Source: Magnetospirillum sp.
GTDB taxonomy: Bacteria > Pseudomonadota > Alphaproteobacteria > CACIAM-22H2
DNA: 64,000 nt
Direction of reading: 5' to 3'
Assembly: GCA_027532905.1 (NCBI GenBank)
Contig: JAPZUA010000005.1
Span: 248,001-312,000, forward strand
In this document: positions 4,872-5,933 of the stretch, one piece after another
Layout of the letters: the number at the start of each line of letters is the position of its first letter
How positions within the stretch are numbered: the stretch's first letter is position 1
Made by a program: the position numbers and the translations under genes
Notes under the pieces: generated by a model
Told to the model about the DNA's origin: nothing
Databases searched by the model: none
Seen by the model: only the letters and a program-made list of their open reading frames with translations

Positions 4872-5294
4872 TCAGCTGTCGAGCTGGCGATCCAGGCGTG
4901 CCACGCGTTCGAACAGCAAGCGGCTCTGCGCCATCAAGGCGCCGAGCTTCTTGCTGTTTGCGGCGACGCGCGCATCGGTGTCGGCGAGGCACAAAGCATG
5001 GGCGCCAAGCCGGTAGGCGTCGGCTTGCGCCTCTTCGCGCGTGATCTCGCCCGCAGCCAAGGCCTTCTGCGCCAGCAGCCACGCCATGATCTGCGCCAAG
5101 CGTGTGGTCAAGCGCAGCGCCTCGCAATTGAGATGCAGCCGCTCGCCGGGCTCGATCTGGCTGAATTCGCCGGGCTGGACGTTGGCGACGTAGTCGCGGG
5201 CGGACAACAGCAGCCCCATCGTATCGTCGTAGGTCCGGCCGAAAAAAGGCACCGTGCGTTCAGCTTCGCGACTACCGTTTTCGACTGCGGACAT
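4872..5294 (-). CDS. DUF1465 family protein, RcdA-like
   Basis: This 140-residue helical protein belongs to the DUF1465 group, whose studied member is Caulobacter RcdA, an adaptor that helps ClpXP degrade CtrA and other cell-cycle proteins. The N-terminal segment PFFGRTYDDTMGLLLSARDY and the central RLTTRLAQIMAWLLAQKALA match the family pattern as I know it. I chose the ATG at 5294 over an in-frame TTG at 5300 because GGAAAGGGG lies seven bases before it. It is tail-to-tail with the EamA gene and divergent from the small heat-shock gene. Whether it acts on CtrA here is inferred from the family only. Confidence 0.75.
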   Translation of the reverse strand: MSAVENGSREAERTVPFFGRTYDDTMGLLLSARDYVANVQPGEFSQIEPGERLHLNCEALRLTTRLAQIMAWLLAQKALAAGEITREEAQADAYRLGAHALCLADTDARVAANSKKLGALMAQSRLLFERVARLDRQLDS

Positions 5295-5363
5295 GGACAA
5301 CCCCTTTCCACGTCAAAATCTTCGGCGCGATCGCGAGAAAACGCAAATGCGTTTTTGAGAGGG

Positions 5364-5392
5364 CTTGAAGCCGCGATTGCCGTTCCTATCTT
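5364..5392 (+). promoter_or_regulatory. Probable RpoH (sigma-32) heat-shock promoter
   Basis: CTTGAAG (5364-5370) and CCTATCTT (5385-5392) are separated by 14 bp. This resembles the heat-shock sigma pattern in alphaproteobacteria (CTTG-type -35, C-rich/TAT -10). It lies about 80 bp before a small heat-shock gene, and the predicted start near 5399 coincides with the first leader hairpin. Confidence 0.6.
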
Positions 5393-5397
5393 CTCCT

Positions 5398-5474
5398 GCG
5401 ACCGGGGATGCCCATTTGGGGTCGCCCGGCCAGAACCACAGAAATCCCATCGCTCACAGGAGGATAGGGTCATG
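5398..5474 (+). promoter_or_regulatory. ROSE-like RNA thermometer in the Hsp20 leader
   Basis: The leader folds into at least two hairpins. The first pairs GCGACC (5398-5403) with GGTCGC (5420-5425). The second pairs 5446-5455 (CCCATCGCTC) with 5460-5469 (GAGGATAGGG) over an ACAG loop, leaving G5452 and A5466 bulged, and buries the Shine-Dalgarno bases. The strand facing the ribosome site contains TCGCT, matching the U(U/C)GCU signature with a central G that defines ROSE elements. Known ROSE elements melt on heating and release translation of small heat-shock genes. The downstream gene is of exactly that class. The fold was done by eye. Confidence 0.72.
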
Positions 5475-5933
5475 ACACAGTTCGATTTCGCGCCCCTTTT
5501 GCGTTCCACCATCGGCTTCGACCGGCTGTCGCGTCTGATCGACGAACAGCTGCGCACCGCCGATCCCACCGGTTACCCGCCCTACAACATCGAAAAAACC
5601 GGCGACAACGACTATCGCATCGCGATGGCGGTGGCGGGCTTCGCCGACGACGAGCTCAGCCTCGTGCAGCAGGATACGCTGCTCGTGATCTCGGGCCAGA
5701 AGAAGCAGAGCGCCGACCAGGCGGCCGCCTACCTGCATCGCGGCATTGCACAGCGCGCGTTCGAGCGCCGCTTCCAGCTTGCGGACTTCATCCGCGTGGT
5801 GGGTGCGAAGCTCGAAAACGGCCTGCTCTTCGTGGATCTCGTGCGCGAAGTTCCCGAAGCGCTGAAGCCGCGCCGCATTCCGGTCGAGGCCGCACCCGCT
5901 GCGGCACGCACGATCGCGGCACAAGCCGCGTAG
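5472..5933 (+). CDS. Hsp20/alpha-crystallin small heat-shock protein (IbpA-like)
   Basis: This 153-residue protein has the small heat-shock layout: an N-terminal arm with GFDRLSRLIDEQL, then an alpha-crystallin domain from about residue 37 (YPPYNIEKTGDNDYRIAMAV) to about 133. The domain includes the hallmark AYLHRGIAQRAFERRFQL segment and a GLLFVDLVREVPE strand. Such proteins hold unfolding proteins in a refoldable state during heat stress. The IxI-like C-terminal motif is weak (PRRIPVEA), and the tail is Ala-rich. Expression is probably controlled twice: by an RpoH-type promoter and by a ROSE-like thermometer that covers the ribosome-binding site. Confidence 0.93.
   Translation: MTQFDFAPLLRSTIGFDRLSRLIDEQLRTADPTGYPPYNIEKTGDNDYRIAMAVAGFADDELSLVQQDTLLVISGQKKQSADQAAAYLHRGIAQRAFERRFQLADFIRVVGAKLENGLLFVDLVREVPEALKPRRIPVEAAPAAARTIAAQAA

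Follow-up and report, generated by a model that had tools for sequence, protein, structure and literature searches.

The hsp20 locus and its predicted leader

The window, the 64,000-nucleotide stretch of Magnetospirillum sp. DNA analysed here, carries on its plus strand an hsp20 gene (5472–5933) encoding an IbpA-like small heat-shock protein of 153 aa. The protein scored 58.2 bits against PF00011, above the cut-off, and 163 bits (E = 4e-48) against the IbpA model NF008013, under the cut-off of 212. Upstream, on the same strand, the sequence contains a putative promoter with the −35 element CTTGAA (5364–5369) and the −10 element CCTATCT (5385–5391), which resemble those of RpoH-type promoters. 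A regular expression for such promoters had an upstream match in 79 of 115 distinct leaders of orthologous genes (below). Transcription is predicted to start near 5398, about 7 nt past the −10 element, which gives a leader of about 74 nt up to the ATG at 5472 (73 nt under the rule applied in measuring the ortholog leaders). The divergent neighbour (4872–5300, minus strand) encodes a DUF1465 protein (95 bits) and shares its intergenic stretch with the hsp20 promoter.

Folding of the leader yielded two hairpins. Hairpin I (CCGGGGAUGCCCAUUUGGGGUCGCCCGG; 5402–5429, plus strand), also aligned by the Rfam ROSE_3 model, begins 4 nt past the predicted start near 5398, in agreement with the first-pass annotation, which had placed an early hairpin there. 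Hairpins of this kind (CC–loop–GG with a minimum of 8 pairs and up to one skip) were found in 69 of the 115 leaders and in 4.9% of shuffles. The linker that follows (5430–5444, plus strand) corresponds, judging from leader lengths, folds and a protein tree, to the position of a middle hairpin in sister species. Hairpin II (5445–5469, plus strand), which folding, covariation and the covariance model R1 support as ROSE-type, covers the ribosome binding site. Its anti-Shine–Dalgarno (SD) strand contains UCGCU (5450–5454), an instance of the U(U/C)GCU motif, and its other strand the SD sequence GGAGGA (5459–5464), 7 nt upstream of the start codon. The pairs are C5455–G5460, U5454–A5461, C5453–G5462, C5451–G5463, U5450–A5464 and A5449–U5465, followed by a short outer stem, and G5452, between C5451 and C5453, is unpaired in the predicted fold. 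The letters and pairings claimed earlier, GAGGA of the ribosome site against UCGCU with one G unpaired, are thus correct.

The predicted free energy of hairpin II (5446–5469) at 37 °C is −8.2 kcal/mol, and all minimum-energy folds between 20 and 60 °C contain its core (5449–5455 with 5460–5465). The outer stem is of a C–A mismatch form at 20 °C and of a bulged-A form from 25 °C. In the former, A5466 is not bulged but faces C5448 in a 1 × 1 mismatch, beyond which C5447–G5467, C5446–G5468 and U5445–G5469 pair. This register fits the sister leaders L008–L011, L013 and L014 better (columns 12–15 with 36–39 of alignment A1); across most of the genus, columns 15/36 are mismatched (C–A or G–A; U–A in L012), with in-register pairs below. 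Of the two bulges in the first-pass annotation, the G stands, whereas the A may instead be part of a mismatch.

Conservation and covariation of hairpin II

A protein search with the window Hsp20 had a hit in 49 of the 61 related genomes (any Hsp20 relative counted) and at no fewer than 80 named loci; the nearest among the matches listed belong to metagenome bins labelled Rhodospirillaceae, Asaia and Rhodospirillales. In all, 122 leaders were extracted, 42 of them from related genomes and 80 from named loci; 115 are distinct over the last 60 nt. Of these, 111 carry the pattern U(U/C)GCU-N2–10-GGA in the 32 nt that precede the start codon, compared with 0.5% of mononucleotide shuffles. It is missed in L044, L045, L083 and L114, the first two of which keep the helix by a compensatory U–A to A–U change. 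The GCU of the motif, including the unpaired G, is invariant across the 115 aligned leaders. L028 carries two tandem copies of AUGCAUGUCGCUCAUAAGAAGGA (motif plus SD) upstream of its Hsp20 start codon.

With all 115 leaders included (113 rows being distinct), hairpin II has 86.4% of its 1124 cells paired, versus 39–56% in controls in which the partner strand was slid by 1–3 columns, and the covariation score is 0.402, versus 0.05–0.16; eight of the ten pairs vary on both sides. Neither the paired percentage nor the covariation score was reached in any of 500 shuffles; less exceptional were the number of pairs with both-sided changes (reached in 29/500) and the pair types (70/500). Alignment A1 comprises 47 of the 115 distinct leaders, picked by eye as diverse and alignable, and omits most named loci as well as L019, L021–L023, L028, L044 and L045. 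On this set 91.1% of 450 cells are paired and the covariation score is 0.423 (0.04–0.17 when slid); 0/500 shuffles matched either value, and 190/500 reached the number of pairs with both-sided changes. RNAalifold recovered nine of the ten hairpin II pairs unaided.

A transcription-factor binding site in the DNA, which ROSE was first believed to be (PMC4166951), would also be conserved in sequence and lie just downstream of a promoter, as this element does. The changes seen here are, however, compensatory within an RNA helix, and the distance from element to start codon is constant while the predicted leader length varies (63–124 nt, n = 79), so that binding of a heat-shock transcription factor to the DNA is an extremely improbable account of the conserved leader.

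Specificity of the hairpin model

The covariance model R1 was built on hairpin II from A1, with the window leader among the training rows. In the 4.26-Mb genome of the window it has one strong site, that of the window (42.7 bits, E = 6e-9), and the next scores 14.3 bits (E = 4.6). It is silent on some ROSE-like leaders, in the genomes of L019, L021–L023, L044 and L045. In a sample of the class, 103 of 240 genomes matched at E ≤ 0.01, at 112 places, counted whatever the hsp20 content of the remaining genomes. Eighty-eight of these places were new to the leader set: 74 lead into an Hsp20 frame, as judged by a profile of the ortholog proteins, and the other 14 precede an RpoH-type sigma factor read from the translation (8) or other frames (6). 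Among the places away from Hsp20, L236, L240 and L241 look like chance matches and L230 is ambiguous; the weak R1 matches L149–L152 were discarded as chance, judged by what follows them. At L221 and L211 the ROSE-like hairpin is followed by a frame of just 20 or 8 aa, respectively, which may be a broken or misread gene.

Purine-rich SD sequences pair easily, and in the energy model the hairpin does not melt at 42 °C: the ViennaRNA unpaired probability of the window SD goes only from 0.17 (25 °C) to 0.18 (42 °C). Both points would suit an ordinary hairpin that covers the ribosome site without sensing temperature, or an SD complementarity that arose by chance. This is nonetheless a very unlikely explanation in the face of class-wide compensatory changes, an unpaired G that never varies and a location almost always at heat-shock genes. 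For the E. coli ibpA control the same calculation gave 0.01 to 0.03, again without predicted melting, and because this thermometer behaves alike in the model, folding at 20–70 °C says nothing on melting.

Relation to Rfam families and known thermometers

The scan with the ROSE models RF00435 and RF01832 that the first-pass annotation had proposed did not bear it out: neither model matched a 401-base stretch with the window leader at E = 10, and the whole 64-kb window contains no Rfam family at its gathering score. A 9.9-kb scan including the leader gave none at E = 1. The sole Rfam match in the 401-base scan was ROSE_3 (RF02523), at 16.0 bits (E = 0.75; gathering score, 43), its alignment being full length (model positions 1–69 of 69 over 5402–5477). 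The window leader thus reaches the curated gathering score of none of RF00435, RF01832 and RF02523.

Orthologous leaders also stay below the RF00435 cut-off of 45: L153 scored 36.8 bits, L016 33.5 and L029 30.8, the match of L153, from a genome of the same family, running end to end, and L011 and L014 gave nothing at E = 1. In the 61 related genomes, RF00435 and RF02523 reached their cut-offs in none, though aligned leaders there carry the hairpin; this silence has little weight, because neither model matched in any of 14 control genomes either. The E. coli ibpA leader, used as a control, scored 20.8 bits with ROSE_3 and 100.4 with ROSE_2 (RF01832). Given this control and the leaders of the relatives, the cut-offs are narrow, and Rfam was dropped as the deciding test; with Rfam negative at its cut-offs, the relatives' leaders were therefore used instead. 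A weak match to the alphaproteobacterial sRNA ar7 (39.2 of 60 bits) lies at L016:1935–2057, at the hsp20 end and beyond.

RF00435 is the alphaproteobacterial, Bradyrhizobium-type ROSE. The window leader has in common with it the type of gene, the SD hairpin and the unpaired G, and differs in having no middle hairpin. ROSE_3 is the best Rfam match to the window, yet at 16.0 bits against 43. With E. coli ibpA (ROSE_2), described as a studied thermometer in PMC3669281, the window shares UCGCU against the SD and a small heat-shock product; unlike the window leader, that of E. coli has three main hairpins in its predicted fold, and RF01832 is absent from the window stretch. There are close parallels to the two-hairpin ROSE leaders of Pseudomonas ibpA, which function both in vivo and in vitro and need no more than hairpin II to do so (PMC3669281): a short leader (61–62 nt in Pseudomonas and about 74 nt in the window), a two-hairpin fold, U(U/C)GCU–SD pairing in hairpin II, an ibpA-type gene downstream and a sigma-32-type promoter. 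Unlike Pseudomonas, however, the window genome belongs to another bacterial class, and its short form is apparently derived within the genus from a three-hairpin form.

ROSE-like elements lie in the 5′ UTR of small heat-shock genes, are 60 to over 100 nt long and have two to four stem-loops (PMC10474464), carry U(U/C)GCU in the 3′-proximal hairpin in imperfect pairing with the SD (PMC3669281) and contain a bulged G inside the motif (PMC11342760). The window has a predicted leader of about 74 nt with two hairpins before an Hsp20 gene, UCGCU (5450–5454) paired with 5461–5464 in a helix backed by covariation, and G5452 unpaired in the predicted fold. By contrast, fourU thermometers set four consecutive U against the SD (PMC4166951), and no UUUU faces the SD in the window leader. 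ROSE-G, as described in PMC12857270, has CUGCU with a bulged G opposite a bulged G in the SD, and was rejected: the window motif is UCGCU, and the SD bases that flank the unpaired G are both paired.

All comparative tests run (the conserved motif, the covariation and the placement before hsp20) support the earlier identification as ROSE. Together, these results indicate, with a probability of about 0.9, that the hsp20 leader is a short two-hairpin ROSE-type RNA thermometer, a reading drawn from sequence comparison, in which the temperature response would follow from the class. The element is an ordinary member of the known ROSE class and a clear example in a Rhodospirillales-like lineage.

Two leader architectures in the genus

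Within the genus, leaders L004–L010, the window's included, are short (67–73 nt, two hairpins), and L011–L014 are long (96–101 nt) with an extra middle hairpin. A start is predicted for 79 leaders (63–124 nt), of which 71 measure at least 78 nt. A 30-row Hsp20 tree unites the short-form rows in a single clade (support 96/86); rows L015–L033 were scored as long from folds and sequences, L015, L019, L024, L026 and L033 being without a predicted start. On a plain reading, the short form arose by a single loss of the middle hairpin within the genus. A sequence pattern for this hairpin was set aside: it matched only 42 of 115 leaders, versus 4.5% of shuffles, and missed many hairpins evident from folds. 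Since the pattern is insensitive, leader lengths, folds and the tree were relied on instead. The short and long forms make a natural pair, within one genus, for testing the role of the middle hairpin.

Paralogous hsp20 genes and a possible Hsp20 feedback

The genome has three hsp20 genes. The second, L002 (C1:760806–761198, minus strand), has a ROSE-like leader, GGCAUUGCUC-GUUG-GGAGGGUGCC, which was matched neither by R1 in the genome scan nor by Rfam at E = 1; the third, L001, has no such motif ahead of its start. U(U/C)GCU is present in 15 of 20 further leaders of the L002 paralog group and absent from five (L046, L050, L053, L055 and L060). Three of these five, L053, L055 and L060, are from the same genus and have GGGGGCGCUCCGGAAAGUGC in common upstream of the start, where the regulatory leader may have been replaced.

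The leader might instead be mainly a binding site of Hsp20 itself, with free Hsp20 blocking translation and aggregates drawing Hsp20 away; unfolded proteins, and not melting of the RNA, would then convey the temperature signal. Such control may also add to a thermometer. In E. coli, IbpA binds the ibpA 5′ UTR and thereby represses its own translation, for which Arg93 is needed and Tyr34 can be replaced by aromatics only, and the authors noted both residues in alphaproteobacterial IbpAs (PMC10474464). The window Hsp20 keeps both (R95, Y35); across the 115 orthologs Arg is present in all and the Tyr position is Tyr in 103 and Trp in 12, and the third Hsp20 of the genome, which lacks a ROSE leader, has Gly and Ala at those positions. 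This conservation is, however, expected, as the 115 proteins were chosen by similarity to the window protein. In the paralog group, moreover, the five leaders without U(U/C)GCU (of 20) precede genes for Arg proteins and two motif-bearing ones precede genes for Gly proteins, which refutes Arg93 as a strict companion of ROSE by breaking the link in both directions. Hairpin II also keeps the SD pairing that a melting switch requires. We therefore regard a leader serving mainly Hsp20 binding as unlikely, and Hsp20 feedback as a plausible second layer atop the thermometer.

Proposed mechanism

If the leader acts as a ROSE thermometer, RNA polymerase with RpoH would initiate near 5398. At growth temperature, hairpin II would hold the SD by the imperfect UCGCU pairing, which includes the unpaired G and, below the core, the C–A mismatch or bulge. 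Upon warming, hairpin II would open, the ribosome would bind and Hsp20 would be made, while hairpin I would remain folded. That melting falls in the physiological range and induces translation is what we infer by analogy.

ROSE hairpins before rpoH

In one small-genome family (three genomes searched), hairpin II stands directly before rpoH in L155, L156 (identical with L148) and L157, the third match being weak (E = 0.023). A ROSE-type first hairpin lies ahead of it in this family (CCGAAUGCC...GGGUUCGG in L156), and the L156 protein scored 327.1 bits against the RpoH model TIGR02392 (cut-off 323.1). Further elements before rpoH are L179, L187, L188, L195, L207, L231, L232 and L235, making 11 leaders from several alphaproteobacterial families. 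In these, 97.3% of 110 cells are paired, versus 47–66% when slid, a figure that is biased because R1 selected the set. A search with TIGR02392 in 23 genomes, seven of them picked for these elements, found an RpoH match right behind the element in all seven (six above the cut-off, G223 just under), and R1, run on 30 rpoH loci, found the leader in the same seven. The scanned RpoH loci of the window genome, L258 and L273, gave no R1 match. L273 (C1:77221–78021) and L274, from a same-genus genome, are RpoH-like copies whose leader combines a first hairpin of ROSE type, GGGAUGCCCAAUUGGGGUCC, with a CCUC-AAG-GAGG hairpin that covers the SD, without U(U/C)GCU.

In a tree of 32 RpoH proteins, some on long branches, seven of the nine ROSE-led ones group together (93/85), and the ROSE label needs three changes on the tree, at least two of them forced. 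We found no report of ROSE before rpoH in the literature searchable here. In rhizobia, rpoH1 belongs to a cluster that contains ROSE-controlled genes. For comparison, the E. coli rpoH element extends as far as 229 nt into the coding sequence (PMC4166951), and ABC transporter genes have been added to the ROSE-led genes by PMC11342760.

These observations make it fairly likely that the ROSE module is movable within the alphaproteobacterial heat-shock system, and that it came to stand before rpoH in several lineages, with at least two origins, perhaps under the same Hsp20 feedback. For the window itself little changes, as it adds one more ROSE thermometer, and the wider interest lies mostly in the rpoH side result: if true, thermometers of one and the same kind would switch translation of both the sigma factor and the chaperone.
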